A stretch of 64,000 nucleotides of DNA from Nesterenkonia sandarakina (GTDB lineage: Bacteria > Actinomycetota > Actinomycetes > Actinomycetales > Micrococcaceae), in NCBI RefSeq assembly GCF_013410215.1, contig NZ_JACCFQ010000001.1, forward strand, positions 868,001-932,000. The letters are read 5' to 3'. Both the position numbers and the translations under genes were made by a program. Below, one piece after another: positions 3,402 to 20,647 of this stretch. A model generated the notes under the pieces. It was not told the DNA's origin and did not search any database. It saw only the letters and a program-made list of their open reading frames with translations. How positions within the stretch are numbered: position 1 is the stretch's first letter; each line of letters starts with the position of its first letter.

Positions 3402-4094
3402 ATGGTCCGAGTCCCGGAATCCCAACGGGTGCGTGATGCGCTGGAGAACGCCATCGTCGACGGACACTACGGTCCCGGGCAGCGTCTGGACCCTGCCAAG
3501 CTGCAGGAGGAGTTCGGCTGCTCGCGCACCCCGGTGCGGGAGGCGCTGCAGGGGCTGGAACGTTCCGGATTGGTGCGCATCCGCCCCAAGCAGGGCACCT
3601 ATGTCACCGAGCTGAGCCTGCCGGAGCTGGCGGAGCGCTTCGAACTGATGGCTGAGCTCGAAGGAATGGCCGCACGGCTGGCTTCGAGTCGGATCGAGCG
3701 CGAGCCCCTGGCAGAACTGGGCAAGGCACTGAAGGAATGTGAGCGCTTCGAGGCACTCGGTGACGCCGACGGCTACTACTACGCCAACGCCTTGTTCCAC
3801 GGCATGATCTACGACTCCTGCGGCAACGGGTATCTGCAGCAGCAGGCACACCATCTGCGACGCGTGCTGCAGCCCTACCGGCGACTGCAGCTGCGCGCCC
3901 CGGACCGTATGCGTCGCTCCCTCGCCGAGCACCTCGCCATCGTGAACGCGATCAGCGCCGGAGACGGTGAGACTGCGGAGAACACCGCCCGTGACCATGT
4001 CCTGGTCCAGGTCAAGGAATTCAGCCAGCTCGTGCGGACCTGGACCAGACTGCGCGAGGCCCGCGCCGATCACGTCCACACCGCGTCCTCCTGA
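3402..4094 (+). CDS. GntR-family (FCD-type) regulator of the malonate operon
   Basis: A 230-residue DNA-binding repressor. Residues 5-65 form the winged helix-turn-helix (FGCSRTPVREALQGLERSGLV). Residues about 75-205 form an FCD ligand domain that keeps its metal histidines H133, H177 and H199. The ATG at 3402 is chosen because GAGGAGG lies four bases upstream; an upstream GTG in frame has no ribosome site. It is divergent from the malonate fusion gene, the arrangement of MatR/MdcY-type regulators, so malonate or malonyl-CoA is the likely effector (inference). The IclR gene follows after 13 bases and is probably cotranscribed. Confidence 0.88.
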   Translation: MVRVPESQRVRDALENAIVDGHYGPGQRLDPAKLQEEFGCSRTPVREALQGLERSGLVRIRPKQGTYVTELSLPELAERFELMAELEGMAARLASSRIEREPLAELGKALKECERFEALGDADGYYYANALFHGMIYDSCGNGYLQQQAHHLRRVLQPYRRLQLRAPDRMRRSLAEHLAIVNAISAGDGETAENTARDHVLVQVKEFSQLVRTWTRLREARADHVHTASS

Positions 4095-4107
4095 AGAAAG
4101 GAACCAG

Positions 4108-4956
4108 ATGTCACCGGAGCGCAGCCCCGAGTTCATCGAAGCGATCTCGCGCGGGTTGTCGGTCATCAAGGCCTTCACCCCCGAGTACCCCATCCTGACC
4201 CTGAGCCAGGTGGCCAAGGCCACGGATCTGGCGCGTCCCACCGCACGCCGGATCCTGATGACCCTGCAGGAGCTGGAGTACGTGCGCGCAGAGAACGGCG
4301 CCTTCGCCCTGACCCCTCGAGTGATGGAGCTCGGGATGGCCTACGTGAGCTCCCTGGGCCTGTGGGAGGTGGCGAGGCCTCATCTGGAGGCGCTGGTCAC
4401 GCACACCCACGAGTCCGCTTCGATGTCCCAGCTGGACGGCCCGGACATCGTCTATGTCGCCCGGGTTGCGGTGCCGAAGCTGATCGGGCTGCGAGTGGAC
4501 ATCGGGACCCGCTTCCCGGCTCCGCCGACCTCCCAGGGCAAGGTGCTCTTGGCAGACATGGAGCGTCGGGAGATCCTGCAGCGGCTTTCCGAGGCTTCGC
4601 GCTCCTCGGTCATTCCGGTGGTCCAGTGGGACCAGAAGTCCTTCCTCGAAGAGCTGGACCGGGTGAAGCAGCAGGGTTACGCACTCGCCGATGAGGAGCT
4701 TGCCCGTGGCATCCGTTCCGTCGCCGTTCCGGTCCGTGATGCCCAAGGCCGAGTGCTGGCCTCGATGAACACCACCGTCCATGCCGCCGAGACCAGTGTG
4801 GAGACGCTGCTGAACAAGCACCTTCCTCCGCTGCGCGAGGCTGCTGCGGCGGTCACCGAGGATTGGACCCGCTGGCAGTCACTGCCGAGTCAGGTCCGCG
4901 AGCGCGACCCCGCCGACGTCGGCCGGATCCCGCTGCTGGTCTCCCCGGAGGAGTAG
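4108..4956 (+). CDS. IclR-family transcriptional regulator (PcaR/PobR-like)
   Basis: A 282-residue IclR-family protein. An N-terminal winged helix-turn-helix (about 12-72, LTLSQVAKATDLARPTARRI) is followed by a GAF-like effector domain (about 85-255) with LGMAYVSS and the family-typical ELARGIRSVAVPV segment. The PcaR/PobR/PcaU branch controls aromatic acid catabolism. The ATG at 4108 has GAAAGGA upstream; longer in-frame extensions overlap the GntR gene and lack a ribosome site. The gene converges on the dioxygenase operon (stop at 5074), so it is the nearest candidate for the factor that reads the CGGAC-N4-GTCCG palindromes. That link is inference. Confidence 0.87.
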   Translation: MSPERSPEFIEAISRGLSVIKAFTPEYPILTLSQVAKATDLARPTARRILMTLQELEYVRAENGAFALTPRVMELGMAYVSSLGLWEVARPHLEALVTHTHESASMSQLDGPDIVYVARVAVPKLIGLRVDIGTRFPAPPTSQGKVLLADMERREILQRLSEASRSSVIPVVQWDQKSFLEELDRVKQQGYALADEELARGIRSVAVPVRDAQGRVLASMNTTVHAAETSVETLLNKHLPPLREAAAAVTEDWTRWQSLPSQVRERDPADVGRIPLLVSPEE

Positions 4957-5073: not shown

Positions 5074-5439
5074 TCACATGGCGACCGAGGGGTAGTCCCG
5101 GCCGGTCCAGTGGCCCAGCTTCTGCGCCATCTCGGTCTGGAACGCCAGCGGACCCTTGGCGGCGGCGTACTCCTCGTCGAAGAGTGCGATGAACAGGGTC
5201 AGGTTCAGGAAGAAGTGGGCGCCGTGCTCGAAGAGCCAGACGTAGTCGTGGGTGGCCAGCGCCTCGCGCTCTTCTTGAGTGAACTCCAGCCAGCTGGTCT
5301 GCTCCACCGGATTCAGCCAGCGCCCGACCTCCTTCTCCCAGCGGAGGACGGTGGCCCGCGGATCCTCGCGATAGCTGGCCACCCATTCGGGGTCCCGATC
5401 GATGGTGAAGAGAAACTTGTTCACGTAGTACTTGCTCAT
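5074..5439 (-). CDS. LigA-like small subunit of a class III extradiol ring-cleavage dioxygenase
   Basis: A 121-residue all-helical protein of the LigA family (small subunit of protocatechuate 4,5-dioxygenase, or C-terminal domain of gallate dioxygenase). It starts MSKYYVNKFLF and keeps a long helical core with LATHDYVWLFEHGAHFFL (62-79). The family subunit closes the active site of the catalytic subunit. The ATG at 5439 overlaps the stop of the catalytic gene by four bases (ATGA), implying translational coupling; the longer in-frame extension is only an overlap artefact. The order catalytic then small subunit equals the domain order of fused gallate dioxygenases and is opposite to ligA-ligB. 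Confidence 0.85.
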   Translation of the reverse strand: MSKYYVNKFLFTIDRDPEWVASYREDPRATVLRWEKEVGRWLNPVEQTSWLEFTQEEREALATHDYVWLFEHGAHFFLNLTLFIALFDEEYAAAKGPLAFQTEMAQKLGHWTGRDYPSVAM

Positions 5440-6407
5440 GCCTGCTCCTGACTCACGCGGAACTGATCCCAGGCCGGGTCGGAGGCGTAGATCGGGCCGG
5501 TGCTGGCCTCCGAGGTCTCCGCGGCCCGGGCGGCCGCATCGAGCTGACCGGGAGTCTTGTTCGGGTACCAGGTCATGTACATCTCCCGGGTGTGGAAGAG
5601 ATCCAGGTGATCGACGTAGTCGGCGTGGACTCCGGGGCCGGCGATGCCCATCATCAGCAGCAGGTCCATGAAGCCGTGGGTGGCATTGCCGGCTCCGGCC
5701 ATGGACGCGTGGGTGACGTTGTCCAGGATCGCGTCGACATTGCCGGTGGAGAGCCATTCGATCGCATCGGCGTCGAAGAGCGGGTCGGGGCCGTGCTCAC
5801 CGAACTGGCGCGGCCCGCCGAGCTCCAGCGAGAGATGCCCGGTGCCGATGGCTGCCACTTTCTTCTCGCTGGGGAAGCTGTCGATGATCTCCCGGATGGC
5901 CCTCCCCACCTGGTAGAACCGACGCGGGGAGGGCAGCGGGGGCACGAAGATGTTGGTGTAGATCGGCACGATCGGCAGATCCGCTTCGGGGCGGACCGTG
6001 ATGATCGGGCAGATGATGGAGTGATCGATCTTCAGCTCATGACTGACCGAGAAGTCGAAGTCCTTGCCCAGCAGCTCCTCATGCATATAGCGGGAGAGCT
6101 CGATGTCCCCGGCGAGGGTGTACTTCGGGATCCCGAACTCGCGCTCCTCGTTGTAGAAGGTCGCGTCGTAGCTCTCCTGCTTGCCGATCAGGAACTGCGG
6201 ATAGTTGTCCAGCCAGAGCTGGTGGAAGTGATCCGCCCCGACCATCACCAGGATGTCAGGCTCCGCGGCGGTGAGCGTCTCGCGGTAGGCCTCGACCTTG
6301 CGCTGCCAGTCGGCGGCATAGGGCGGTCGCTGATCTGCCGGAGACGTGGTGGCCTTGTAGTAGAACGGGTGATGGGTGCTGGCGAGCACCGCGGTCAGCT
6401 CTGCCAT
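5436..6407 (-). CDS. LigB-like catalytic subunit of a class III extradiol dioxygenase
   Basis: A 323-residue protein of the LigB superfamily, which uses Fe(II) to cleave catecholic rings. The expected iron and active-site histidines are present: H12/H13 in STHHPF, H60 in GADHFH, H129 in KIDHS and H191 in GTGHLS. The region where LigB/gallate dioxygenases supply the third ligand, a glutamate, reads AGAGNATHGF (238-247) with no Glu, so the ligand set may be altered. The ATG at 6407 has AAGGAG upstream and lies two bases after the lyase gene. Substrate is unknown; a gallate- or protocatechuate-like acid is a reasonable guess from the subunit arrangement. Confidence 0.85.
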   Translation of the reverse strand: MAELTAVLASTHHPFYYKATTSPADQRPPYAADWQRKVEAYRETLTAAEPDILVMVGADHFHQLWLDNYPQFLIGKQESYDATFYNEEREFGIPKYTLAGDIELSRYMHEELLGKDFDFSVSHELKIDHSIICPIITVRPEADLPIVPIYTNIFVPPLPSPRRFYQVGRAIREIIDSFPSEKKVAAIGTGHLSLELGGPRQFGEHGPDPLFDADAIEWLSTGNVDAILDNVTHASMAGAGNATHGFMDLLLMMGIAGPGVHADYVDHLDLFHTREMYMTWYPNKTPGQLDAAARAAETSEASTGPIYASDPAWDQFRVSQEQA

Positions 6408-6409: not shown

Positions 6410-7246
6410 TCAGATCTCCTTCGACTCACCGGCGTCGTCGCCGCTCAGCGGGACGAACCTCGCGTTCCGGTCCACATGCATATAGATCTCGTTGGCGATC
6501 GGGTTCCGCCGCTCCTCCGCGATCTGTCCCAGCAGCCCGGCAGTGCGGGCCAGCAGCGCGAAGCCGCGCAGGAAGTCCACCGGGAGGCCCAGGTCAGCCA
6601 GGGCTGCTCCGCAGACCCCGGCGCCGTTGAGCGGCAGCTTCTTGCCCAGCACCTCTTCACTGACCCGACCCATGGCCTCGAACAGGCGCAGATGCTCCCC
6701 GCGGGTGTCGCCCTCCTCAGCGATCTGGATCAGCCGCGGGGTCCGCGGGTCCCCCTGCTTGTGCACCGGATGGCCCAGGCCGGGAACGATCTGCTTCGCG
6801 GCCCGCGCCCGGGTGATCGCCTCCCGCGCCAGCGCGTCGTAGTCCGCCTCGGTGCTGCGCTCGCCGTCGTCGGCCTGAAGCACCTGGTGCAGGAACCTCC
6901 CGGTGTCCTCGGTGACCCCGAGGAAGCGGGAGCCCCCGCCCAGCAGGCCGGCGGCGATGGCGCCCTGAATGGACTCCGGGGCCGAGAGGTAGGTCAGCCG
7001 GGCCGCGATCGCGGTGGGGGTGAAGCCGTGATCGGCCAGTGCGACCAGCACCGCCTCGAAGGTGCGCAGCTCACCGGGGGTGGGCCGGCGAGTGGCGGTC
7101 ATCCAGAAGGCCAGCTCGGCGAACCCGACCTTGCCCATCAGGTCCTCGGAGAGGGACTGGCCCATCAGGCTGATCTCTTCGGTGGTGGAGGTTCCCAGCG
7201 AGGTGGGGTAGCTCGGTGTCTGATCCTCGTGCGCTGCGGTGCCCAT
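6410..7246 (-). CDS. Citryl-CoA-lyase-like protein (citrate synthase fold)
   Basis: A 278-residue, short citrate-synthase-fold protein of the type annotated as citryl-CoA lyase. The two histidines that act in citrate synthase are recognisable: H73 in ADHGF and H159 in GLGHPVHK. The third catalytic position, an Asp in the usual NVDG motif, appears as NGAG (207-210), so the acid/base Asp seems lost. Its start overlaps the CoA-transferase stop as TGATG, and the LigB-like gene follows after two bases. A CoA-transferase plus a lyase of this fold suggests that a citrate-like ring-cleavage product is activated with CoA and split; this is inference. Confidence 0.75.
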   Translation of the reverse strand: MGTAAHEDQTPSYPTSLGTSTTEEISLMGQSLSEDLMGKVGFAELAFWMTATRRPTPGELRTFEAVLVALADHGFTPTAIAARLTYLSAPESIQGAIAAGLLGGGSRFLGVTEDTGRFLHQVLQADDGERSTEADYDALAREAITRARAAKQIVPGLGHPVHKQGDPRTPRLIQIAEEGDTRGEHLRLFEAMGRVSEEVLGKKLPLNGAGVCGAALADLGLPVDFLRGFALLARTAGLLGQIAEERRNPIANEIYMHVDRNARFVPLSGDDAGESKEI

Positions 7247-8493
7247 CAGTGGGTCCTCTCGGCGGGGTGCTGCCCGCTTCGCGTGGAAGCCGGCTGCTTC
7301 AGCCAGGCCTTGATCTCCTCGGTGTGCTCGCCCAGCTCCGGCGGGGCCAGCTCATAGCGCGGAGTCATGGTGTTGAAGCTCAGCGGGTGCCGGACCCCGG
7401 GCACAGCGGACTCCCCGCTGCCCACCTGGACCACCGGCTTCAACCCCAGCGCCTCGGCGTATTCCACCCCCTGTTTGATGGTGTTGATCGGCCCGCAGGG
7501 CACTCCGACCTCATTGAGCTTCTCGAAGAGCTCCTGGGCGGTGTGCTTGGCGAGCTCCGCCTCCAGGATCGGGCGCAGCTCGTCACGGCGGTCGGTGCGG
7601 TCTCCGACCTCGGCGAAGCGCTCATCCTGGGCGATCTCCGGGATTCCCAGCACCGTGCAGAGCCTGCTGAACTGAGTGTTGTTCCCGGCGGCGATGATCA
7701 CGTCGTCGTCGGCGGTGGGCATGGCCTCATAGGGGTAGAGCGAGGGGTGGGCGTTGCCCATCCGCATCGGGGTGGTGCCGCCGCCCACATAGGCGTGGGT
7801 CTGGTTCACCAGGCCGGACATGGCCGAGGCCATCAGGGACGCCTCGACGTGGGTGCCGTCGCCGGTGCGATCGCGCTGGCGCAGCGCGGCGAGGATGCCG
7901 ATGGTCGAATGCAGCCCGGCCATCACGTCGAACACGCTGATCCCGGCGCGGTAGGGCGGGCCGTCCGGGGAGCCGGTGAGGCTCATCAGCCCCGACATCG
8001 CTTGGACGATCAGGTCATAGCCGGGGTACTTCGCGCCCTCCCCCTCGGTGCCGAAGCCGGTGATCGAGGAGTAGATGACCTGCGGATTGGACTCCGCGAC
8101 GGCGTCGTAGTCCAGTCCGAACTTCTTGAGCCCGCCGGGCTTGAAGTTCTCGATCACCACGTCGGCGCGCTGCGCGAGCGCCTGGGCGGCGGCGAGGTCC
8201 TCGGCGTCCTTGAAGTCCAGCACGATCGACTTCTTGTTCCGGTTGATCGCCGCATAGTAGGTGGAGACTCCGTCCGGACGGCGGGGCGGGACCCAGGTGC
8301 GGGTGTCGTCTCCCCCGGCGTTCTCGACCTTGATCACCTCGGCTCCGAGGTCTCCCAACAGCATGGTGGCGTAGGGGCCGGCGAGCACCCGGGAGAAGTC
8401 CGCGATCAGGATGCCCTCCAGCGGCAGGCCGCCGCCGGCCTGCTGGGGCCGCGCATCTGCGGCGCTGGTCTGATCTGGATGATGTTGGCTCAT
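7246..8493 (-). CDS. CaiB/BaiF family III CoA-transferase
   Basis: A 415-residue family III CoA-transferase, which moves CoA between carboxylic acids through an aspartyl-CoA intermediate. The N-terminal LAGPYATMLLGDLGAEVIKVE block (38-57) and the catalytic Asp189 in GISVFDVMAG are intact. The ATG at 8493 is chosen because AAGGAGGA stands seven bases upstream; a longer in-frame start lacks a ribosome site and would cover the operator. It is the first gene of the operon with the lyase and the dioxygenase subunits, and its promoter region carries a CGGAC-N4-GTCCG palindrome. Confidence 0.88.
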   Translation of the reverse strand: MSQHHPDQTSAADARPQQAGGGLPLEGILIADFSRVLAGPYATMLLGDLGAEVIKVENAGGDDTRTWVPPRRPDGVSTYYAAINRNKKSIVLDFKDAEDLAAAQALAQRADVVIENFKPGGLKKFGLDYDAVAESNPQVIYSSITGFGTEGEGAKYPGYDLIVQAMSGLMSLTGSPDGPPYRAGISVFDVMAGLHSTIGILAALRQRDRTGDGTHVEASLMASAMSGLVNQTHAYVGGGTTPMRMGNAHPSLYPYEAMPTADDDVIIAAGNNTQFSRLCTVLGIPEIAQDERFAEVGDRTDRRDELRPILEAELAKHTAQELFEKLNEVGVPCGPINTIKQGVEYAEALGLKPVVQVGSGESAVPGVRHPLSFNTMTPRYELAPPELGEHTEEIKAWLKQPASTRSGQHPAERTH

Positions 8494-8552
8494 CTCGGAG
8501 TCCTCCTTCTGCGAGTCCCACACAGGTCCTGTCACACCCGGACGTGTCGTCA

Positions 8553-8612
8553 TGCGGACACTCGTCCGCACGTGTCGTGATCAGTTTCACACCGGCTGCC
8601 TGTGGCCGTCAA
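8553..8612 (-). promoter_or_regulatory. Promoter and palindromic operator of the CoA-transferase/dioxygenase operon
   Basis: A perfect 18-base inverted repeat TGCGGACACTCGTCCGCA lies at 8553-8570, flanked by two direct copies of CGTGTCGT (8543-8550, 8571-8578). Upstream on the minus strand I see TTGACG (8607-8612), a 17-base spacer and TGAAAC (8584-8589) as a plausible promoter. That places the palindrome about 14-31 bases downstream of the -10, a repressor position. The core CGGAC-N4-GTCCG recurs at 8676, 10907 and 15335. Confidence 0.75.
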
Positions 8613-8675
8613 CCCCGGGATCACCTGGGCCAGAGTCCCTAGACTGGATTACTTGGGCCGACTTCACGAGGTAAA

Positions 8676-8711
8676 CGGACTCTTGTCCACTGTGCGAACG
8701 ACCGCTATCGT
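8676..8711 (+). promoter_or_regulatory. Promoter with overlapping palindromic operator, amidohydrolase gene
   Basis: CGGACTCTTGTCCA (8676-8689) matches the CGGAC-N4-GTCCG palindrome in nine of ten arm positions. It overlaps a likely -35 TTGTCC (8683-8688), which is followed by a 17-base spacer and -10 TATCGT (8706-8711). A protein bound here would block RNA polymerase. The gene starts at 8747. Confidence 0.7.
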
Positions 8712-8746
8712 GAGCAGCATCACAGAGAACTTCAATGGAGGCTGAT

Positions 8747-10237
8747 ATGAGTTCTGAAGCCGCATCCAACGGCACCGGCGCGCCCGTCCTGTTCAAGAAC
8801 GGGATCGTGCTGACCATGGACAAGCAGCACAGCGTCTTGACCAGGGGTGACGTCCTGGTGCTGGGTGACACCATCGCGGCCATCGGCCCGGACCTCGAGG
8901 CGCCCGAACATGCCCGGGTGATCGACGCCGAGGGCGGGATGATCACCCCCGGCTTCATCGACACCCATCGGCATATGTGGCAGACCGCCATGCGCGGCTA
9001 CGGCGCCGACTGGACACTCACCCAGTACTTCGTCTGGAACTACTTGGAGCACGGCAAGAAGTTCCGACCCGAGGACATCTATGCCGGGAACCTGCTCTCC
9101 GCCGTGGAGGCCATCGACTCCGGGGTCACCACCTCGGTGGACTGGTCCCACGGGCTCTCCACCGTGGACCATGCCGATGCCGCGGTGGACGCACTCCAAG
9201 AGGTCGCCGGGCGCTTCGTCTTCGCCTATGGCAACATCCACGCCGGGCCCTGGGAATGGTCCGCCTCACCCGAGTTCCGCGACTTCGTGGACCGTCGGAT
9301 CCCCCGCTCCGGAGGCCAGCTCGGCGATGACATGCTCGGATTCCAGATGGCCTTCGACGTCACCGGTGACCCGGAGTTCCCGGAGAAGAGGGCCTTCGAG
9401 GTCGCCCGGGAGCTGGGCGTGGGCGTCACCACCCACGCCGGGGTCTGGGGTGCGACCAACGACGACGGCATCCGACTCATGCACGAACACGGGTTCATGG
9501 ATGAGAAGACGGTTTATGTCCACGCCGCCACTCTGAACCAGGACTCCTACCAGCGCATCGCCGCCACCGGGGGTGCCGCCTCGGTCTCGGCGGAGTCCGA
9601 ATCCAGCTGTGGGCAGGGCTACCCCTCCTCCTGGCAGCTGCGCAGGCACGGGATTCCGGTCTCCCTCTCGGTGGACACCTCGGTCTGGTGGAGCGCAGAT
9701 CCCTTCGCCGCCATGCGTTCCACGCTCAGCTCCGACCGGGCGCGCGAGCATTTCGAGCACCACGCCACCGGGGAGACCTGCACCAACCTGGGCCTGCGCG
9801 CCGACCAGGTGGTCGGCTGGGCCACCCATGGCGGCGCGGAGGCGCTCGGGATGGGAGACTCCATCGGCTCCCTGGAGGTCGGCAAGAAGGCCGACATCGT
9901 GCTGATCAAGAACGATGACTCTCCGGCGATGTTCCCGATCCTGAACCCGCACGGCCACGTGGTGTTCCAGGCCCAGCGCGGGGATGTGCACACCGTGATG
10001 GTCAACGGGCGGATCGTGAAGCATGCGCACAAGCTGGTGGATGTGGACCTGGCCAAGGTGCGGCGCACCGTGCAGGCGACCGTGGACCACATTGCCGCGG
10101 AGCTGGGACAGGCGGAGTGGGAGGCCGGGATGAGCCCCGAGGTTCCGGAGACCAAGATCCTGGACAACCCGTACACCTACACCGAGTACCGCTCCGAGAA
10201 GACCCATACCGCCCAGGGGCGCGGCCCCGGGGCGTGA
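8747..10237 (+). CDS. Metal-dependent amidohydrolase (ATZ/TRZ-type deaminase-like)
   Basis: A 496-residue member of the amidohydrolase superfamily related to chlorohydrolases and cytosine/guanine-type deaminases. The metal and catalytic residues are visible: H74 and H76 in THRHMWQ, H230 in TTHAGVW, H259 in VYVHAA and D310 in SVDTSVWW. The substrate is not predictable from sequence. The start at 8747 is preferred over 8735 because GGAGG sits five bases upstream. It is divergent from the dioxygenase operon and shares its operator type, so it probably acts in the same pathway, perhaps removing an amino or halogen substituent before ring cleavage (inference). Confidence 0.85.
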   Translation: MSSEAASNGTGAPVLFKNGIVLTMDKQHSVLTRGDVLVLGDTIAAIGPDLEAPEHARVIDAEGGMITPGFIDTHRHMWQTAMRGYGADWTLTQYFVWNYLEHGKKFRPEDIYAGNLLSAVEAIDSGVTTSVDWSHGLSTVDHADAAVDALQEVAGRFVFAYGNIHAGPWEWSASPEFRDFVDRRIPRSGGQLGDDMLGFQMAFDVTGDPEFPEKRAFEVARELGVGVTTHAGVWGATNDDGIRLMHEHGFMDEKTVYVHAATLNQDSYQRIAATGGAASVSAESESSCGQGYPSSWQLRRHGIPVSLSVDTSVWWSADPFAAMRSTLSSDRAREHFEHHATGETCTNLGLRADQVVGWATHGGAEALGMGDSIGSLEVGKKADIVLIKNDDSPAMFPILNPHGHVVFQAQRGDVHTVMVNGRIVKHAHKLVDVDLAKVRRTVQATVDHIAAELGQAEWEAGMSPEVPETKILDNPYTYTEYRSEKTHTAQGRGPGA

Positions 10238-10288
10238 GCAGGCCGAGCGCCTGGACTGGATCCGGGCACGCGTGGTGCGTGCGATCGA

Positions 10289-10323
10289 CGGGGGCTGCGC
10301 CGGCGAGGGGAGCACAGCCCCCG
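10289..10323. terminator. Bidirectional terminator-like hairpin
   Basis: Perfect 9-bp arms CGGGGGCTG (10289-10297) and CAGCCCCCG (10315-10323) with a 17-base loop lie between the convergent amidohydrolase and DoxX genes. There is no clear T tract, which is common in high-GC actinobacteria. Confidence 0.6.
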
Positions 10324-10367
10324 CGAGCGCGGCCCCCGTTCTGCTGCGCTGCGAGTCGCGCCGGTCC

Positions 10368-10889
10368 TCAGCCGGTGACTCTGGCGCGGCGAACCAGCAG
10401 CGCAAAGGGCACTGCGGCGATCCCTGCCGCAAGGAGGATCAGGATCCCCACCCAGGTGGCCGGCTCCTGGATCAGCGTGCTCCAGAGCTCACCGGAGAAC
10501 TGCGCATCCACGGCATGGGCCCCCGCCCCGGTGAAGCCCAGCACGGCGGCGGCGGCCGCGAGCACATAGGGATACTCCCCGCCCCCGGCGATGTTCCAGA
10601 ATGCCCCGGAGTTCAGCTGCATGGTCAGACCCGCCACCATCATGGTCCCGGCCGCGAGCAGCGCCCCGATGGGTGTGAGCAGACCCAGGAGCAGCAGTGT
10701 GCCGGCGAGCAGCTCGGAGAGTCCCGCAGCGAGCACCATTCCGCGGCCCGGTCGCAGCCCCAGGGAGGCGAAGATCTCCCCCTGACGGCGCAGCCCGTTG
10801 CCCCCGAACCATCCGGCGAGCTTCTGGCTGGCGTGGGTGAAGAGGATCAGCGCCAGCACCAGGCGCAGCAGCAGCAGACCGATGTCCAT
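10368..10889 (-). CDS. DoxX-family membrane protein (MhqP-like)
   Basis: A 173-residue integral membrane protein with four hydrophobic segments (about 4-24, 50-70, 74-94 and 140-165) and the DoxX-type N-terminus LLLRLVLALILFTHASQKL. DoxX proteins are linked to quinone and thiol redox stress; Bacillus mhqP sits beside the dioxygenase mhqO. The ATG at 10889 is chosen because AAAGG lies five bases upstream, whereas the GTG at 10895 abuts the ribosome site. It has its own promoter with a CGGAC-N4-GTCCG palindrome, tying it to the dioxygenase genes on both sides. Confidence 0.85.
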   Translation of the reverse strand: MDIGLLLLRLVLALILFTHASQKLAGWFGGNGLRRQGEIFASLGLRPGRGMVLAAGLSELLAGTLLLLGLLTPIGALLAAGTMMVAGLTMQLNSGAFWNIAGGGEYPYVLAAAAAVLGFTGAGAHAVDAQFSGELWSTLIQEPATWVGILILLAAGIAAVPFALLVRRARVTG

Positions 10890-10906
10890 GATCACCTTTC
10901 ATTCAG

Positions 10907-10956
10907 CGGACGAGTGTCCGTTTGGCAAGTGTCGCCCGCCAGCACTCGCTCGTCAA
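10907..10956 (-). promoter_or_regulatory. DoxX promoter with palindromic operator
   Basis: CGGACGAGTGTCCG (10907-10920) is exactly the reverse complement of the core palindrome at 8555-8568. Upstream on the minus strand, TTGACG (10951-10956), a 17-base spacer and GACACT (10928-10933) form a possible promoter. The palindrome would then cover the transcription start. Confidence 0.7.
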
Positions 10957-11067
10957 GGGTTTCCCCGCCGCATGCAGCACCAGTCATCCGACCCTGGGCG
11001 CTGCTCTGGCGTAGCATGAGGTGCCTCACACCAGTGGGCAGGATCTCTCGGAGGAAGGGGACGGGCC

Positions 11068-11364
11068 GTGGCACATGCAGCTGGCCATCAACCCCGAGCC
11101 GAGGAGCCGGCCAGTCTGTGGAAGCGGTTCAACGCCGGGCTCCACGAGTTCTACGTCGCCCCGTACCGGCGGGTCTTCGCCCGCGCCAAGCGCGATGAAG
11201 AGGACCTGTTCATGATGCTGGTGCTCTCCGAGGCGCTGGGCCTGCCGAACCCCGCCTCGGGGATGACCCTGGAGCTGCTGCCCGAGATGCTGGACCGGAT
11301 GCATGAATGGCACACCCGCCAAGGGTTGGAGCACTCCCCGATGGATGGACTGAGCTGTTGCTGA
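11068..11364 (+). CDS. Cory-CC-star-type small protein (C-terminal Cys-Cys)
   Basis: A 98-residue basic protein that ends GLSCC. The body is mostly helical ([21 protein letters not shown]). It resembles the actinobacterial cory-CC-star family: small proteins of unknown function with a terminal Cys pair, encoded next to an ArsA-like ATPase, as here (13-base gap). The paired cysteines could bind metal or a membrane-targeting partner; that is inference. The GTG at 11068 follows GGAGGAAGGGG by about eight bases. Confidence 0.75.
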
Positions 11365-11377
11365 AAGGACTCGGTAC

Positions 11378-12358
11378 ATGCTGCTGGAGCTGATTCAACG
11401 ACGCCGCGTGCTCTTCCTCGGCGGCAAGGGCGGGGTCGGCAAGACGGCCACCGCCTCTGCAGCGGCGCTGCACCAGGCCGCCTCCGGGCGACGCGTGCTG
11501 CTGGTCTCCACCGACCCGGCGCATAATCTGGGCCACCTGTGGGACCAGCGGGTGGGCGATGAGCCGGTGGAGCTCTACCGCGACGACACTACCGGCGGGG
11601 TGCTGCGCGGAGTGGAGATCGACCCGCAGCGCACCATCGACGAGCACCTGGCGGAGGTCGGGGCCACGCTGCGCGACTTCATGCCGGAACACCTCCACCC
11701 ACAGGTCGCCGCGCATCTGAAGCTCTCCGCACACTCCCCCGGCACCCATGAGTCGGCCATCTTGGAACGCATCGCCGTGCTGATCGAATACGGGCTCGAC
11801 GCACATGATCTGATCGTCTTCGACACCGCCCCCTCGGGTCATACGGCACGGCTCATGGCCCTGCCGGAGATCATGTCGACCTGGATGTCTGGACTGCTGA
11901 CCCGGCGCAGCAAGGCAGAACGCTTCGGTGCGGCGGTGCGGGTGCTCGACGGAGACGATGACCCGGCGTCGAACGCTCCGAGCAACCGGGATCAGCGGAT
12001 CCGGCAGGTGCTGACCCGCCGCAAGGCACGGTTCGAGATGCTGCGCGAGGTGCTCAGCAACCCCAAGACCTGCAGCTTCGTGGTGGTGCTGACCCCCGAA
12101 CGACTCCCGGTGCTGGAATCCGTGGAGCTCTGCGCGCAGCTGCGCGAGTCAGGGGTCGACGTCGGCGGCCTGGTGGTCAACCGACTCTCTCCCCGCGATG
12201 CCGGGGAGTACCTGGCGCAGCGGCGGGAACAGGAGCAGCGTCATCTGGACTCCCTCTCCGAGCTGCTCCCCGGGGTGGCGGTGGACACCCTTCCGATGCT
12301 CTCCGGGGATCTGGTCGGCCCGGCGGCGATCCAGCGTCTGGCCCACGAGCTGCGCTGA
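11378..12358 (+). CDS. ArsA/GET3-family ATPase
   Basis: A 326-residue P-loop ATPase of the anion-transporting/tail-anchored-protein-targeting family. The deviant Walker A is GGKGGVGKT (15-23) and is followed by STDPAHNLG (49-57) and a switch-like [12 protein letters not shown] segment (about 149-160). True ArsA is a tandem duplication; this single copy is nearer to GET3. No arsR, arsB or arsD is nearby, so arsenite transport is not supported. It is translated with the cory-CC-star gene and probably serves that protein, perhaps in metal or membrane-protein handling. Confidence 0.85.
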
Positions 12359-12403
12359 GCCCCCGCTCGCCTGAGTCGACAGCTCTTCTCCGGCAGCAGG
12401 AGT

Positions 12404-12434
12404 CCCGGGCTGGATCAGCCTGTTCAGCCCCGGG
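12404..12434. terminator. Imperfect hairpin at convergent gene ends
   Basis: CCCGGGCTG (12404-12412) can pair with CAGCCCCGGG (12425-12434) with one bulged C. The right arm overlaps the last codons of the hydrolase gene. It could terminate the ArsA transcript. Confidence 0.4.
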
Positions 12435-13071
12435 CGTGACGCCTGAGATACTCGCGGATCCGGGCCACGGCGTCCTCGGCGATGTGGTGCTCCTCGTCGC
12501 GGTAGACGCTCAGCGTGGTGACCGCGGCGAGTCCCTCGAACGCCGCGGCGGTGTCCTTCACCCGGTGCAGCGGCACCCAGGGGTCCTCATCGGCGCAGAA
12601 GAGCTCGATGGCGCGCCCGCTGAGCCCGGGCTCGGAGGCCGCATCGAAGCTGCGTGGTCGCGGCCCCAGATACCCGCCGGTGTGCAGCAGCGCCCCGTCC
12701 ACCGCCGGCTGGACCGTGAGCAGGTACTCGGCGAGCAGGCAGGCTCCCTGGGAGAACCCGAAGACGACCACCGGGGCGCCGTCGTCGTCGCGGGTGTCAA
12801 GCAGCTTGCAGAGCTGATCCTTGACCACCGCGAGGGCCTGGCCGAGCTGGGGCTGGTTGGACTCGAACGGTTCCATGAACTTCCCCGGATACCAGGAGTG
12901 CCCCGCCGCGCTGGGCAGCCACCAGCAGATGCCGTCCACGCCGATACGCTGCGCGAGGTCGATGAAGAACTGCGGGCTCTGGGTGCGACCATGGACCCCG
13001 TACACCACCAGCCGCGCCTGCTCGGGCTCGGCGCCGTGGTGCACGAGGTCCATCTGGTGATGGGTCAGCAC
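12424..13071 (-). CDS. Alpha/beta hydrolase, MhqD/carboxylesterase-like
   Basis: A 215-residue phospholipase/carboxylesterase-type hydrolase. The triad is visible: Ser in GFSQGA, Asp in CADEDPWVP and His in DEEHHIAED. In Bacillus, MhqD is co-regulated with the ring-cleaving MhqO under quinone stress, and here it directly follows an MhqO-like gene (six bases). The GTG at 13071 is used because it keeps the operon spacing; an ATG at 13053 is possible and neither has a clear ribosome site. It may hydrolyse the lactone or ester product of ring cleavage (inference). Confidence 0.8.
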   Translation of the reverse strand: MLTHHQMDLVHHGAEPEQARLVVYGVHGRTQSPQFFIDLAQRIGVDGICWWLPSAAGHSWYPGKFMEPFESNQPQLGQALAVVKDQLCKLLDTRDDDGAPVVVFGFSQGACLLAEYLLTVQPAVDGALLHTGGYLGPRPRSFDAASEPGLSGRAIELFCADEDPWVPLHRVKDTAAAFEGLAAVTTLSVYRDEEHHIAEDAVARIREYLRRHARG

Positions 13072-13077
13072 GGCGGA

Positions 13078-14037
13078 TCAGTCGTCCACGCGCAGCGGCT
13101 CGAGCTGGGACATGATGTGCTCGCGCTCGTGCTCGAACTGCGGCGGCAGCATGAACTTCCGGCCCAGCTCCTCGGGGGACTCATCGCAGTCCCAGCCGCC
13201 GTCGGCATGGGTCACCGCCAGCTCGAAGAGCGCCCCTCCGGGGGTGCGCACGTAGTGGGACTTGAAGTAGGTGCGGTCCTTCAGCTCCGAGATGTCGGTG
13301 TAGCCCGCGCCCTCGATCTGGAACTTCGAGGCCTCCTGGTTCTCCAGGGTGTCGAAGTTCCAGGCGAAGTGGTGGTAGGTGCCGGCGGCGAATCGCCAGG
13401 TCCCCTGATCATCGGTGCGGTTGCCGCGGAGCTGGACCCAGTTGCCGTAGTCATCGGAGCCGACCTTGAACCGGGCGACGTCGCCGGCCTCGCTGATCTC
13501 ACCGTCGAAGAAGAACACGTCCTTGGCGAAGTCCACCATCCGGTCCTGGTCATAGACGTGGATGCCCATGCCGTAGATCCCGTGCACCGCGTGCTCCGGG
13601 GGCACCCCGTGTCCGGGATGCCCGACTCGCGGGTCACCGTGCACCCCCACCAGCACGTATTCCAGACCGCAGGGGTGGTGGAACTCCAGCCGCCGTTCAC
13701 CGAAGAGCTCGGACTGCTGGTGATCGATCTGCATGGAGCTCAGCCGCTTCGCCCAGAAGTCCAGTGAGTCCGCCGGCACCGCGAGCATCACCTCGCGGGC
13801 CTGATTGGTGCCGCGCGTGCCGAATCGTCCCTGCTGGGCCCAGGGGAAGGTGGTGACCACCGCGGAGGGGTCCCCGTGGGCGTTGGAGTAATACAGGTGA
13901 TAGATCGGGATCGAGCCGTCGTAGAGCACGGTCTTCTTGATGAAGCGCATCCCCAGGACCTTGGTGTGGAAGTCGACGTCCTCCTGGGCCTTGCCGACGG
14001 AGAGCGTCACATGGTGGGAGCCGAGCAGATACGTCAT
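13078..14037 (-). CDS. Ring-cleaving dioxygenase, glyoxalase fold (MhqO/LinE-like)
   Basis: A 319-residue protein with two vicinal-oxygen-chelate halves, of the MhqO/PcpA/LinE type that cleaves hydroquinones. It begins LLGSHHVTLSVGKAQEDVDFHTKVLGMRFIKK, keeps YHHFAWNFDT in the second half, and ends each half with a metal-ligand-like Glu segment (LEFHHP, LFELAVTH). Downstream is an MhqD-like hydrolase; upstream is maleylacetate reductase, which reduces the ring-fission products of chlorohydroquinone or hydroxyquinol pathways. The ATG at 14037 has AGAAGGG upstream. The exact substrate cannot be read from sequence. Confidence 0.85.
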   Translation of the reverse strand: MTYLLGSHHVTLSVGKAQEDVDFHTKVLGMRFIKKTVLYDGSIPIYHLYYSNAHGDPSAVVTTFPWAQQGRFGTRGTNQAREVMLAVPADSLDFWAKRLSSMQIDHQQSELFGERRLEFHHPCGLEYVLVGVHGDPRVGHPGHGVPPEHAVHGIYGMGIHVYDQDRMVDFAKDVFFFDGEISEAGDVARFKVGSDDYGNWVQLRGNRTDDQGTWRFAAGTYHHFAWNFDTLENQEASKFQIEGAGYTDISELKDRTYFKSHYVRTPGGALFELAVTHADGGWDCDESPEELGRKFMLPPQFEHEREHIMSQLEPLRVDD

Positions 14038-14078
14038 GGTGGTGCCCTTCTGTGGAAGTGACTGCTGCGTTCTGGGGA

Positions 14079-15269
14079 CTAGGGTGACCTGCTGCCTTCC
14101 AGGTGCCGGACGGGACGCTCCAGCGCGGAGGCATCCGCTCCGGAGAATGCCGCCCGGATCAGCTCGGCCGCATCGGTGGCGGTCATCTTCCGGGGATTGC
14201 TCGCCGGGACGACCTCCAGGATCAGGCTCGCAGCACGGTCCAGATCGGCCTCCTTCAGCCCGTGGTCCCGCAGTGCACGCGGGGCATCGATCTGGGTGCG
14301 CAGCCGCTCCAGGCCGGTCAGCGGATCCGGGGCGTCGAGGGCCTGCGCAATGCGCTCCCCGGCCGCGGGCGCATGAGGCAGGTTGAAGGCGAGCACGTGG
14401 GGCAGCAGCACGGCGTGGGTCTGGGCGTGGGGCAGCCCGAAGGCTCCACCGAGCATGTGGCAGATCTTGTGGTGCAGCCCGGAGCCGGCCGAGGCGAAGG
14501 CCGTGGCGGCGAGGTAGGCCCCGTACTGCAGCTGCTGGCGGGCCTGCAGCTCGGCGCCGGCGGAATCGGCGGCCCCTGAGGTCCCTGGGCCTGCTGATCC
14601 ACCTGGGTTTCCTGATCCACCTGAGTTCCCTGATCCATCTGAGTCCCCGGCGAGCGGGCTCATGCCGCGACGCAGGGCACCCATGGCCTCACCGGCGAGC
14701 AGAGCGTTGAGCGGATCGGCCCGCGGGCCCCAGAGCGAGTCGATGCAGTGCGCCAGCGCGTTCATGCCGGAGGCGCTGGCCAGCTCCTGTGGGAGGTCAC
14801 GGACCAGCTCGGCGTCGTAGACCACCCCGGCAGGCAGGACGACCTCGTCGGTGCCGGTGGCCTTGGCGCCGGCCTCGGTGACGCCCCAGACGTTCGTCGC
14901 CTCGGACCCGGCGTAGGTCGTGGGCACCGCGATGATCGGAGCGCGGGTCTTCAGGGCAACGGCTTTGCCCAGCCCGATGGCTGAGCCTCCGCCCACGCAG
15001 AGGATCAGGTCGGCCTGGGCCTGGGTCGCGGCGTCGCAGGCGGACTCCACGTCCTCCACGGGAACATGCTGACGGGCGCCGTCGATCCGGTGCGCGATCC
15101 GCAGCGTGGCATGCAGCTCATCCGCGGCAGCGACGGCGCTGCCGGAGGCGATCAGCAGGATCTGCTGGGCCTGGTGACGCGTCACCTCACTCCGGACGTC
15201 TCTGGTGAGGTTCCCGACGCCGAAATGGACCTGCTGGCCCAGCGTCTGATGGCTGAAGCTCATGGGCAT
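14079..15269 (-). CDS. Maleylacetate reductase (iron-alcohol-dehydrogenase fold)
   Basis: A 396-residue NAD(P)H-dependent reductase converting maleylacetate to 3-oxoadipate, feeding aromatic carbon to the beta-ketoadipate route. The cofactor motif GGGSAIGLGKAVAL (93-106), PTTYAGSEAT (116-125) and the His-rich segments ALAHCID, LHHKICH and LPHAQTHAV mark the family. Residues about 209-238 are a Gly/Ser/Asn insert absent from usual relatives, encoded by an 18-bp tandem repeat. The ATG at 15269 has GGAGGAGAG upstream. It is the first gene of the operon with the dioxygenase and hydrolase; a CGGAC-N4-GTCCG operator lies 66 bases upstream. Confidence 0.9.
   Translation of the reverse strand: MPMSFSHQTLGQQVHFGVGNLTRDVRSEVTRHQAQQILLIASGSAVAAADELHATLRIAHRIDGARQHVPVEDVESACDAATQAQADLILCVGGGSAIGLGKAVALKTRAPIIAVPTTYAGSEATNVWGVTEAGAKATGTDEVVLPAGVVYDAELVRDLPQELASASGMNALAHCIDSLWGPRADPLNALLAGEAMGALRRGMSPLAGDSDGSGNSGGSGNPGGSAGPGTSGAADSAGAELQARQQLQYGAYLAATAFASAGSGLHHKICHMLGGAFGLPHAQTHAVLLPHVLAFNLPHAPAAGERIAQALDAPDPLTGLERLRTQIDAPRALRDHGLKEADLDRAASLILEVVPASNPRKMTATDAAELIRAAFSGADASALERPVRHLEGSRSP
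14594..14647. repeat. In-frame 18-bp tandem repeat (3 units) in maleylacetate reductase
   Basis: Three units of the form CTGATCCA(C/T)CTG(A/G)GT-- lie at 14594-14611, 14612-14629 and 14630-14647. They encode a GSGNPGGS-like insert of about 30 residues, probably a surface loop near the domain junction. Confidence 0.85.
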
Positions 15270-15334
15270 AGGTGTCTCTCCTCCCGCGCAGCGGCGGAGT
15301 CAGGACGGCGGGCACCACGACTGGGCGCAGGTTT

Positions 15335-15385
15335 CGGACAGCTGTCCGAGCGCCATTATGTGATGTAGACCACGCAGTATGTCAA
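15335..15385 (-). promoter_or_regulatory. Maleylacetate reductase operon promoter and palindromic operator
   Basis: CGGACAGCTGTCCG (15335-15348) is a perfect 14-base palindrome of the CGGAC-N4-GTCCG type. Upstream on the minus strand are TTGACA (15380-15385) and CATAAT (15355-15360), with a 19-base spacer, slightly long. The palindrome begins six bases after the -10, a repressor position. Confidence 0.75.
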
Positions 15386-17392: not shown

Positions 17393-18559
17393 TCACCGCA
17401 GCCCCGCGGCGATGGTCTCTTTCAGGATCTCGCTGGTGCCGCCGAAGATGGTGAGCAGACGCACTGCGAGGTAGGCCTGGGCCACCGGATAGTCCAGGAT
17501 GTAGCCGTAGCCGCCGTGCAGCTGCAGGCAGGCGTCCACCGAGGACTTCGCCTGCTCGCTGGCCCAGAGCTTCGCCTTCGAGGCGCCGACCAGGTCCAGC
17601 TCACCGGCGTTGAACCCTGCCACGGCAGCCGCGACGTAGCGCTCGGTCGCCTCAAGTCCCACCTGCAGCTCGGCGAGCTGGAATCGGGTGTTCTGGTGCT
17701 CGCTCACCGGCTGCCCGAAGGTCTCCCGCTGGGCGACGTAGTCGCGCGTCTGGCGCAGCACCTCGGCGGTGATCGCCGCGGCTGAGGTGGCGATGCCGAG
17801 CCGGCCCTGCGGCAGGATCGCCTTGGCGTATTCCAGGCCCCGGCCCGCCTCGCCGATCAGGTTGGCGGCAGGGATCTGCACCCTGGCGAAGAACAGCTCG
17901 GCGGTGTCAGAGGCCGTGAACCCCATCTTCTCCAGCTGGCGTCCCGGCTGGTACCCCGGGTTGTCCTGCTTCTCGACCAGGAACAGGCTGAAGGAGTCCT
18001 CGGCGCCGCGCTGACGGACATCGGAGCCGTCGGTGCGCGCCAGCACCAGGGCCCCGTCGCCGGAGATGCCGTTGCCGATGAAGGTCTTCTGCCCGTCGAG
18101 GGTCCAGCCGCCGTCGTCGTTCTTCACCGCTTTGGTGCGCACGGCGCGCAGGTCTGACCCGGCGCCGGGCTCGGTGAACGCCACGGAGGAGACGAAGGAG
18201 CCGTCCATGAACCGCGGAAGCCAGGCCGCCTGCTGCTCCGGGGTGCCGAACTTCAGCAGCGCCGGGAGCACCCAGTCATCGTGCAGATGCAGCGCGAGGG
18301 AGACCGCGAGCGCGCCGGCGCGGGCGAGCTCCTCGTCCAGGATCATCCGGAACCGGTAGTCCCCGAGCCCCATGCCGCCGTGGTCCTCCTGAACCGCGAG
18401 CCCGAGCAGACCGTTCTCTGCCGCCGCAAGCCACATCGAGCGCTCGATCATGTGCGCAGATTCCCACCCCGGGTAGTGCGGGGTGACCTCGCGGGCGACG
18501 AACTCGCGCACCACCTCGCGGAACTCCTCGTGGATCTCGTCGTAGAAACCGGCAAACAT
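17393..18559 (-). CDS. Acyl-CoA dehydrogenase
   Basis: A 388-residue FAD-dependent acyl-CoA dehydrogenase, which makes a 2,3-enoyl-CoA and passes electrons to ETF. Domain features: LGLAVQEDHGGMGLGDYRF in the N-terminal helical part, SVAFTEPGAGSDL in the beta domain, and LQLHGGYGYILDYPVAQAYLAVRLLTIFGGTSEI at the C-terminal FAD site. The ATG at 18559 has AAAGG upstream. It is last in an operon with etfB, etfA and a CitE-like gene, which supply its electron acceptor and a later C-C lyase step. The substrate is unknown. Confidence 0.88.
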   Translation of the reverse strand: MFAGFYDEIHEEFREVVREFVAREVTPHYPGWESAHMIERSMWLAAAENGLLGLAVQEDHGGMGLGDYRFRMILDEELARAGALAVSLALHLHDDWVLPALLKFGTPEQQAAWLPRFMDGSFVSSVAFTEPGAGSDLRAVRTKAVKNDDGGWTLDGQKTFIGNGISGDGALVLARTDGSDVRQRGAEDSFSLFLVEKQDNPGYQPGRQLEKMGFTASDTAELFFARVQIPAANLIGEAGRGLEYAKAILPQGRLGIATSAAAITAEVLRQTRDYVAQRETFGQPVSEHQNTRFQLAELQVGLEATERYVAAAVAGFNAGELDLVGASKAKLWASEQAKSSVDACLQLHGGYGYILDYPVAQAYLAVRLLTIFGGTSEILKETIAAGLR

Positions 18560-18647
18560 CGTAGGCGGGTGACCTTTCAGGCGGTGGAGGTTCAGGTGGT
18601 CGCGGTCGGTGCGGTTGGGGGCGGTGCTGCGGCGCGCCAGGCGCGGC

Positions 18648-19562
18648 TCAGACGACCCTGCCGATGGACTCGAAGCGGGTCAGGATCCGCTGGACCTGGA
18701 TGATCACCGGCATGTCGATCATCTCACCGCGGAAGCTGAAGGCCCCTGAGAGCTCCGGGTCGGCGCGATGTCCGGCACCGGGAGCCAGTCCCGCCGTGTT
18801 CTCGAAGGCGGCGATGACCCCCTTGGCCCATTCCAGATCCGTGGCCGTGGGGGTATAGGCCTGCCGGATCGGGGCGATCTGCTTCGGGTGGATGCAGGCC
18901 TTGCCGATGAAGCCGGAGGCGCAGGCGTCCTCGGTCTCCACCGCCAGGCGCTGCAGGTCCGGGACCCGGGTGAAGACCGCGTCGATGATCGGCACCCCCA
19001 CGGCGCCGGCGGTGAGCAGCAGCCGGTTACGGGTGAAGCGGATGATCTCCCGCTGCGAACCGTCGCTGTTGCGCGAGGTGGTGCCGCCGATGCCGGCGAT
19101 CAGGTCCTCGGTGCCCCACAGCAGCGCCACGGTGGCCCGGTGCTGGGCCAGCGCGACGTCGTTGAGCACCCCGACCGGCGTCTCGATCTGCGGGATCAGG
19201 CCGACGCCGGGCAGCGCAGCCGCCACCCGGTCCAGGACCTCGGTGCGCTCCGCCTTGGAGACCACCACGAAGCGGATCTCGGTGCCCGCGAGGGCACGCA
19301 GGTCATCCTCGAGCTCCCCGGAGCCCGGGGCGTTGACCCGCACCAGGGTGCGCGCGGGATCAAGGGGCCTCTCCCCCGCGTTCAACGCCTGCACCGCGTG
19401 GTCCCGGGCGATCTCCTTGGCCCCGGAGACCACGGCGTCCTCGAGGTCGATGATCACCGCGTCGGCGGCCTCGGCGGCCTTGCCGAAGAGCTCGGGACGG
19501 CTTGCCGGGCAGAACATCAGGGCTGGGCCAAGCCCGAAGCGGTCTGAGGCGAGGTGGGACAT
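18648..19562 (-). CDS. CitE-like lyase/thioesterase (HpcH/HpaI aldolase family)
   Basis: A 304-residue TIM-barrel protein of the citrate lyase beta/malyl-CoA lyase family. Signatures are VIIDLEDAVV (37-46), the Mg-binding glutamate in IPQIETPVGVLN (about 133-144), WGTEDLIAGIGG and GKACIHPKQI. Family members split malyl-, citramalyl- or hydroxymethylglutaryl-type CoA esters or hydrolyse malyl-CoA. No citC/D/F/G genes are present, so citrate lyase itself is excluded. The ATG at 19562 has GGAGAAGATCC upstream. Between acyl-CoA dehydrogenase and ETF genes it suggests breakdown of a short branched or dicarboxylic acyl-CoA. Confidence 0.83.
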   Translation of the reverse strand: MSHLASDRFGLGPALMFCPASRPELFGKAAEAADAVIIDLEDAVVSGAKEIARDHAVQALNAGERPLDPARTLVRVNAPGSGELEDDLRALAGTEIRFVVVSKAERTEVLDRVAAALPGVGLIPQIETPVGVLNDVALAQHRATVALLWGTEDLIAGIGGTTSRNSDGSQREIIRFTRNRLLLTAGAVGVPIIDAVFTRVPDLQRLAVETEDACASGFIGKACIHPKQIAPIRQAYTPTATDLEWAKGVIAAFENTAGLAPGAGHRADPELSGAFSFRGEMIDMPVIIQVQRILTRFESIGRVV

Positions 19563-19687
19563 GGATCTTCTCCGAGCGTGGTGGGCGAGCCGGGGGTGGT
19601 GCGGGTACCCGGTCCTGATGGGCGAGCCCGGTGCGGGTGGGCCGATGCGGGGGCGAGCCCGGGGTGGAGCGGTTCAGACGCGCGGGG

Positions 19688-20647
19688 TCATCCCTTGCGC
19701 CGTCGCAGCTCCTCGATCATCTGCGGGATGACCTCGTGCAGGTCCCCCACGACGCCGAAGTCGGCGATCTCGAAGACCGGGGCGTCTTCGTCCTTGTTGA
19801 TCGCCACGATGGTGCCGGCGGTCTGCATCCCGGAACGCTGCTGGACCGCCCCGGAGATCCCCGCGGAGATGTAGAGCTGCGGGGAGACCGTCACCCCGGT
19901 CTGGCCCACCTGGGCGGCGTGTTCGATCCAGCCGGCGTCGGTGGCCGCGCGGGAGGCGCCCAGTCCGGCGCCGAGTTCGTCGGCGAGCTCCTCCAGGGGC
20001 GTGAAGTCCCCGTCGACTCCGCGGCCGCCAGCGACGACGACGCGCGCCTCCGCCAGGGCGGGACGGGCCGAGACCTTCAGCGCCTCGCGGTGCAGGACCT
20101 CCACACCGCCCTGGGAGGGACGCACCGGCAGCACGGTGCCATCGGGCTGGTCTCCGGCGTCGAGGAGCGCGTCGACCCGCTGCGGGTCCAGGCTGTTGGG
20201 CCTGAACGTCGCGATCAGCGGGCGACTCAGGCCCGGAGCGAGCTGCGAGACCGTCGTGTAGGAGCCGGCCAGCTCAGATTTCGTGGCGAGAAGCTCCCCG
20301 GTCAGCGCGGCGATGCTGCAGATGATTCCGGTGTCCAGCCGGACCGCCAGCCGGGCCAGGGCGTCGGTGACGTCCGCCGTGGAGGAGCCCAGGATGACCT
20401 CGGCACCGCATTCGGCCACTGCGGTCTCTAACAGGTCCACCACGGCGACCTCGGGGGCGGGCAGGCTGGCCTCGGCCAGGTAGACCTCGCCGACGCCGCT
20501 GATCGCCAGCGCCGGGGTGGGGTCACCCTGGTAGGCGCCGATGGCGATGTGGACCTCTCCCAGTGACTGGGCCTGCGCGATCAGCTCGCGCTGGGTGAAG
20601 CTCAGCGTCTCGCCGAGGACATCGAAGAAGACCAGGACATTGCTCAC
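19688..20647 (-). CDS. etfA: Electron transfer flavoprotein, alpha subunit
   Basis: A 319-residue EtfA/FixB protein: FAD-binding partner that moves electrons from acyl-CoA dehydrogenases to the membrane quinone pool. The C-terminal FAD domain is typical: [49 protein letters not shown] and [22 protein letters not shown]. The GTG start overlaps the etfB stop as GTGA and has GAAGGAG upstream. Gene order etfB-etfA is standard. The next gene lies 125 bases on, after three degenerate copies of GGGCGAGCCC with no coding potential. Confidence 0.93.

Follow-up and report, generated by a model that had tools for sequence, protein, structure and literature searches.

In a 64,000-nucleotide stretch of the Nesterenkonia sandarakina genome (contig NZ_JACCFQ010000001.1, positions 868,001 to 932,000; hereafter the window), four palindromic sites of the form CGGAC-N4-GTCCG, one of them with a mismatch, lie upstream of four gene units that include predicted ring-cleavage dioxygenases. 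Computational comparison establishes the sites, their conservation, and their tie to the IclR-family protein encoded at 4108–4956. We consider it likely, with a probability of about 0.82, that the four sites are operators of this protein, which would repress the four units until released by an aromatic effector; what we infer is the binding itself, a repressing and not an activating role, the effector, and the pathway with its order of enzymes. The decisive evidence for the sites is their conservation in relatives, not the statistics of chance occurrence.

In the mechanism that we propose, a dimer or pair of dimers of this PcaR/PcaU/PobR-like regulator would read CGGAC half-sites. If complete (CGGACRNNYGTCCG), a facing pair separated by four bases would suffice, and many of the operators found in relatives would add a third half-site five bases farther out. 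Without inducer, the IclR protein would sit on or just after the promoters of the four units (CoA-transferase/CitE-like/LigB/LigA; amidohydrolase; DoxX; and maleylacetate reductase (MAR)/MhqO/MhqD) and block them; an aromatic substrate or ring-cleavage intermediate would then bind its C-terminal domain and cause its release from DNA. The features concerned are listed below in window coordinates. The units are as named in the initial annotation, which was made from the window alone, with the doxX start corrected to 10889 and the amidohydrolase start probably at 8747.

8555–8568: putative operator of the CoA-transferase/CitE-like/LigB/LigA unit (minus strand), center 68.5 bp upstream of the start codon
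8676–8699: putative amidohydrolase operator, made up of CGGAC-TCTT-GTCCA (8676–8689), CTGTG, and a third half-site, CGAAC (8695–8699)
10907–10920: putative doxX operator, exact match, center 24.5 bp upstream of the start codon
15335–15348: putative operator of the MAR-MhqO-MhqD unit, exact match, center 72.5 bp upstream of the start codon
4108–4956, plus strand: IclR-family regulator, proposed binder of the sites; PF09339 and PF01614 above cut-off (longer frame 3967–4956 scanned)
3369–4094: GntR-FCD protein, adjoining the IclR gene
5077–5439, minus strand: LigA-like small dioxygenase subunit; PF07746 at 19.7 bits, under the cut-off of 25.3; conservedly adjoins LigB
5436–6407, minus strand: LigB-type class III extradiol dioxygenase (PF02900); best solved-structure match gallate dioxygenase
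6410–7246, minus strand: citryl-CoA-lyase-like protein with citrate synthase fold ("CitE"); NF004868 above cut-off; PDB 6hxp, citryl-CoA lyase
7246–8493, minus strand: class III CoA-transferase (PF02515, scanned as 7246–8571); start picked by ribosome-binding site, frame open
8747–10237, plus strand: TRZ/ATZ-type amidohydrolase of the PRK08204 family (PF01979; NF006056 at 399.7 bits, cut-off 391); start picked by GGAGG
10368–10889, minus strand: DoxX-family membrane protein (PF07681 at 59.7 bits, cut-off 23.6)
12424–13071, minus strand: MhqD-like alpha/beta hydrolase; PF02230 above cut-off; MhqD name taken from the initial annotation
13078–14037, minus strand: MhqO/PcpA-like ring-cleaving dioxygenase; PDB 4huz (2,6-dichloro-p-hydroquinone 1,2-dioxygenase) and 3oaj (mhqO)
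14079–15269, minus strand: iron-type alcohol dehydrogenase family protein, probable MAR; PF25137 and PF00465 above cut-off; MAR name likewise taken over
10928–10956, minus strand: probable doxX promoter, TTGACG (10951–10956), 17 bases, and GACACT (10928–10933), just upstream of the operator; by eye
15355–15385, minus strand: probable MAR-unit promoter, TTGACA (15380–15385) and the CACATAATG block (CATAAT, 15355–15360), just upstream of the operator; by eye

Occurrence and conservation of the palindromes

A pattern scan of the window located exact copies of CGGAC-N4-GTCCG at 8555–8568, 10907–10920, and 15335–15348 and a one-mismatch copy, CGGACTCTTGTCCA (CGGAC-TCTT-GTCCA), at 8676–8689, as first described. 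Three exact copies compare with 0.48 expected in the window, and three or more were reached in 2 of 100 shuffles. We scanned the whole genome (3.02 Mb, 2 contigs) and found nine exact copies, three of which fall inside 6.8 kb (simulated probability 0.0013). Random spread through the genome had been raised initially as a test of the motif; just these three of the nine match the spacer form CGGACRNNYGTCCG, no other exact copy of this type is present in the genome, and the simulated probability of all three lying that close together is 1.25e-5. Of the remaining six, one (L008) is flanked by an oxidoreductase gene and a glycosyltransferase-like gene; the other five are inside predicted coding sequence, three of them in open reading frames with Pfam domains and two in sequence called coding from codon-position GC.

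An IclR match of at least 74% identity is present in 13 of 30 Nesterenkonia genomes. The same 12 of these 13 carry an exact site upstream of the CoA-transferase gene and, on the amidohydrolase side, the sequence CGGAC[TC]CTTGTCCA together with a third box, which reads CGAAC in nine genomes and CGGAC in three. At matching promoters in these genomes the arms are constant while the spacers vary. The comparison of intergenic regions thus bears out the claim that only the arms are conserved, and sites conserved upstream of orthologues support a shared regulon of the four units. MhqO is encoded in 8 of the 13 IclR-bearing genomes, all eight of which have the MAR site and seven the doxX site; in the eighth (L112), doxX begins 4 bp after the mhqD stop codon. 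In three genomes without MhqO (L237, L238, and L240), doxX comes after the amidohydrolase gene. Two Nesterenkonia genomes have MhqO and no such IclR match; one (L242) has no exact site, and the other locus (L241) is cut by a contig end. No exact site was found beside MhqO in 12 loci with MhqO homologues from other genera, with one copy 3 kb away.

Association with an IclR-family regulator

The protein encoded at 4108–4956 belongs to the IclR family by its scores of 44.7 bits for PF09339 (cut-off 22) and 116.3 bits for PF01614 (cut-off 24). TIGR02431, the PcaR/PcaU/PobR subfamily model, was the best of eight models listed, but at 261.4 bits against a cut-off of 284.75 the protein is not filed in that subfamily.

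In a class-wide sample of 394 genomes, we found 32 IclR matches of at least 52% identity, 30 of them outside Nesterenkonia. All 16 of the latter that we examined adjoin some or all of the genes for CoA-transferase, CitE, LigB, LigA, and amidohydrolase, in varying order, and exact sites lie between these genes in 15 of the 16. A second scan, of named genomes with an amidohydrolase alignment, kept the best 80 of at least 588 relatives and shared few genomes with the class sample; contig ends could conceal genes in its short loci. The IclR orthologue was present in 73 of these 80 loci, and all 73 contained an exact CGGAC-N4-GTCCG site, compared to none of the seven loci without it (Fisher test, 3e-10, for genomes that are not independent, many being related). 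This association strongly supports the initial proposal of the IclR gene at 4108 as candidate regulator. Loci of IclR paralogues (44–49% identity, 20 loci) held 3 exact copies in 261 kb, compared to 140 in the 1,179 kb of the 73 loci, and none of those in the 20 paralogue loci was within 1.1 kb of the iclR gene or had a third box. Gene order is reshuffled among taxa, and the sites remain intergenic, in some loci upstream of iclR itself (for example, L240).

Proposed operator architecture and direction of control

In a blind count of all five-base arms with spacers of 0–12 bases, CGGAC-N4 alone occurred in every one of the 73 loci; the two pairs ranked next reached 65. Of the 140 copies, 132 lie no more than 400 bp from core genes without overlapping the coding hits of these genes; six others are farther away, four of which belong to two Nesterenkonia as their doxX and MAR sites, and two are inside hits. 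A third half-site, GTCCG with at least four of five bases matching, occurs exactly 5 bases outside the pair in 108 of 280 flanks, and no other distance from 0 to 19 has it in more than 26. It is carried by 104 of the 140 sites, which thereby have three half-sites in alternating direction, as in PcaU-type operators. Suvorova and Gelfand (2021; PMC8222616) describe such alternating three-box operators for PcaU and for 32 IclR groups; their Table 1 gives the PobR motif as TTGTCCGATSATCGGACAR, that is, GTCCG-N5-CGGAC. The center of the sites, AC[AR]-N2-[YT]GT, and the direction of the half-sites agree by eye with the group 2 IclR motifs given there (TGRAACA-N1-2-TGTTYCA, with a two-base center), but the outer bases differ, being G+C-rich (CGGAC) here.

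The spacer begins with R and ends with Y in 102 of the 132 copies near core genes. This rule holds for 32 of 34 two-box sites but for 76 of 104 three-box sites (Fisher test, 0.008; 2 of the 140 sites, distant from the cluster, left out), as if a complete N4 pair compensated where no third box is present. The amidohydrolase site of the window, which is imperfect and is kept together with its third box, fits such compensation.

The positions of the sites relative to promoters bear on the direction of control. The MAR operator directly follows a conserved TTGACA (7 of 8 aligned genomes; TCGACA in one) and CACATAATG (8 of 8), the doxX operator directly follows TTGAC (7 of 7 aligned genomes) with GACACT in five and AAGACT in two, and the CoA-transferase operator comes after a putative TTGACG-N17-TGAAAC. 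Because operators that stand right after promoter elements favor repression with release by an effector, this placement suggests that the sites mediate repression relieved by an aromatic compound.

Several observations weigh against the sites or against their reading as operators of an IclR repressor. With one mismatch allowed, the 6 matches in the window are fewer than the 8.39 expected, which means that the loose pattern shows no enrichment there, and the nine exact copies in the whole genome compare with 20 for a reversed control pattern, so the motif is not over-represented genome-wide. Only the amidohydrolase site has a third box among the four sites of the window, whose own iclR gene has no site upstream. 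Elsewhere, one class locus (L108) has one-mismatch sites only; one Nesterenkonia genome (G012) has the IclR protein (74% identity) and no site, its CoA-transferase gene being absent; and a MAR-like gene beside the amidohydrolase gene in another (G593, L239) has no site within one mismatch. A strict consensus scan found no promoter, the elements given above having been read by eye. Finally, the amidohydrolase operator overlaps a putative −35 element (TTGTCC-N17-TATCGT), and this position, together with the title of a reference in PMC8222616 that calls PcaU an activator, makes the sign of regulation uncertain.

The overlap with the −35 element and the naming of PcaU as an activator, along with the nearest subfamily model being that of PcaR/PcaU/PobR, speak for another reading: the same IclR protein, at the same sites, would activate in response to its effector, as PcaU and PobR do, or would act in both directions. 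We regard this as rather unlikely, given that the MAR and doxX operators follow conserved promoter elements (in 8 and 7 aligned genomes, respectively), the usual position for a repressor.

It is very improbable that the adjacent GntR-FCD protein or an unlinked regulator binds the sites. The GntR gene adjoins the IclR gene in the window and in nine other Nesterenkonia loci, but its close orthologue (at least 77% identity) was found only in loci of this genus, including 2 of the 73 named loci, and is missing from L237, L238, and L240, which have sites. A relative of 27–32% identity is found in 1 of 16 class loci and 3 of 71 other named loci; the GntR gene thus does not travel with the sites. In contrast, each of the 73 named loci with sites has the IclR gene and none of the seven without sites does, and such close tracking of it is not what one would expect of an unlinked regulator. 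An origin of the palindromes by chance, or a role as RNA hairpins, is hardly credible, despite the lack of enrichment of the one-mismatch pattern in the window and of the exact pattern in the genome, as arms stay constant and spacers vary at corresponding positions in 12 of 13 genomes, every one of the 73 IclR loci has a site, the third half-site keeps one exact distance, and a hairpin at the amidohydrolase site, which covers the putative −35, would not be transcribed.

Predicted regulon content, known systems, and neighboring genes

Judged from gene neighborhoods, the core of the predicted IclR regulon is the set of CoA-transferase, CitE, LigB, LigA, and amidohydrolase genes, and this core is probably older than Nesterenkonia. 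DoxX belongs to the regulon occasionally, in several genera and not in Nesterenkonia only: it is encoded in 1 of 16 class loci and in five more named loci that are not of the MhqO-bearing type, and takes a place after the amidohydrolase gene (L120, L113), between those for LigA and amidohydrolase (two Arthrobacter, L175, L191), after that for LigA (Streptomyces, L126), or after an exact site before the amidohydrolase gene (L140). In every arrangement seen, doxX lies downstream of an operator. MAR, MhqO, and MhqD were found in 2 of 73 named loci, both from Nesterenkonia, and in none of the 16 class loci; they are a predicted addition to the regulon, seen in eight Nesterenkonia genomes. The core of the "aromatic/quinone" regulon originally claimed extends beyond Nesterenkonia, and the quinone part comes solely from the homology of MhqO, MhqD, and MAR in those eight genomes and no other locus examined.

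We reached no definite pathway for the set of LigAB, amidohydrolase, CoA-transferase, and citryl-CoA-lyase-like proteins. The amidohydrolase homologues bear generic names only (among 120 listed of 6254 found, with 7999 candidates scored), and the single solved structure with E < 1e-20 is atrazine chlorohydrolase. Tentatively, these genes may encode a widespread, undescribed actinobacterial aromatic route comprising LigAB-type ring cleavage, an aminohydrolase-type enzyme, CoA activation, and citryl-CoA-lyase-like cleavage. One IclR orthologue group would govern it, its dimers reading the half-sites either in the N5 arrangement of PobR or in an N4 arrangement, and a complete N4 pair could take the place of the third box; hydroquinone-type cleavage would have been wired into the same switch in Nesterenkonia.

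In 37 of 94 loci (for example, L099 10023–11000), the core cluster is accompanied by a zinc-type dehydrogenase with a distant likeness to PIG3 quinone oxidoreductases (under the model cut-off), a pathway hint only. A CstA-like transporter gene (L237 16010–17725, L240 14039–15763) is located between the amidohydrolase-side operator and the amidohydrolase gene, and in an Acidothermaceae bin (L156 9575–13500) two exact sites precede a sugar-type ABC importer; both transporters would fit a role in substrate uptake.

MhqR of Bacillus, whose regulon includes MhqO and MhqD, is a MarR protein. Homologues of these two enzymes are encoded in one unit here too, but the sites here go with an IclR protein and not with a MarR protein, no genome-wide search for MarR genes having been made. 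The closest likeness is to PobR and PcaU of Acinetobacter (4-hydroxybenzoate and protocatechuate), with which the system shares the IclR domains, the GTCCG-N5-CGGAC pair of the PobR motif, and the three alternating boxes that PMC8222616 states for PcaU; here, in contrast, it is CGGAC-N4-GTCCG that is constant and the N5 pair that may be absent, the target genes are others, and the protein is under the subfamily cut-off. NdgR of Streptomyces coelicolor (PMC4340878) is likewise an actinobacterial IclR-type protein with GTCC/GGAC half-sites, but these are reversed in a 15-base site (GTCCAC...GTGGAC type), and its targets are amino-acid and sulfur genes. The actinobacterial ARO microcompartment locus (PMC10470539) also has ring-cleavage genes beside an IclR gene, but for a 2-aminophenol pathway with shell proteins; the strings amidohydrolase, palindrom, and Nesterenkonia do not occur in that article's main text. 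The description of the regulon as undescribed has held to the extent that no published account was found in the limited literature searched, and the 181-group IclR supplement of PMC8222616 may list it.

The regulon appears to be new, of a known type of regulator and with a known style of operator; the pathway is the more interesting part. Our analysis provides a candidate regulator, operator, and targets for a ring-cleavage gene set of many actinobacterial genera, whose chemistry we did not find assigned in the literature searched. The operator offers a handle, as testing a promoter reporter with aromatic compounds would identify the inducer and thereby give a lead to the pathway, and the natural mix of two-box and three-box sites forms a data set on how IclR proteins arrange on DNA. 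An apparently unstudied switch for aromatic degradation is now open to testing.

The G012 cluster (L098 11467–13068) is decaying, with a CitE match of 28 amino acids and an amidohydrolase that matches in two pieces. In the window, a 1010-amino-acid frame (254–3286, minus strand) adjoining the GntR-FCD gene combines malonyl-CoA decarboxylase domains (PF17408, PF05292) with an AMP-binding ligase (PF00501, PF13193) and is a probable decarboxylase/synthetase fusion; AT-rich TGTATAT repeats at 3290–3340, between it and the GntR gene, are possibly the GntR protein's own operators. On the other side of the cluster, genes for an acyl-CoA dehydrogenase, an HpcH/HpaI lyase, and two ETF subunits (17393–21660, minus strand) contain no exact site among them, and the same set also adjoins the cluster in four Nesterenkonia loci.

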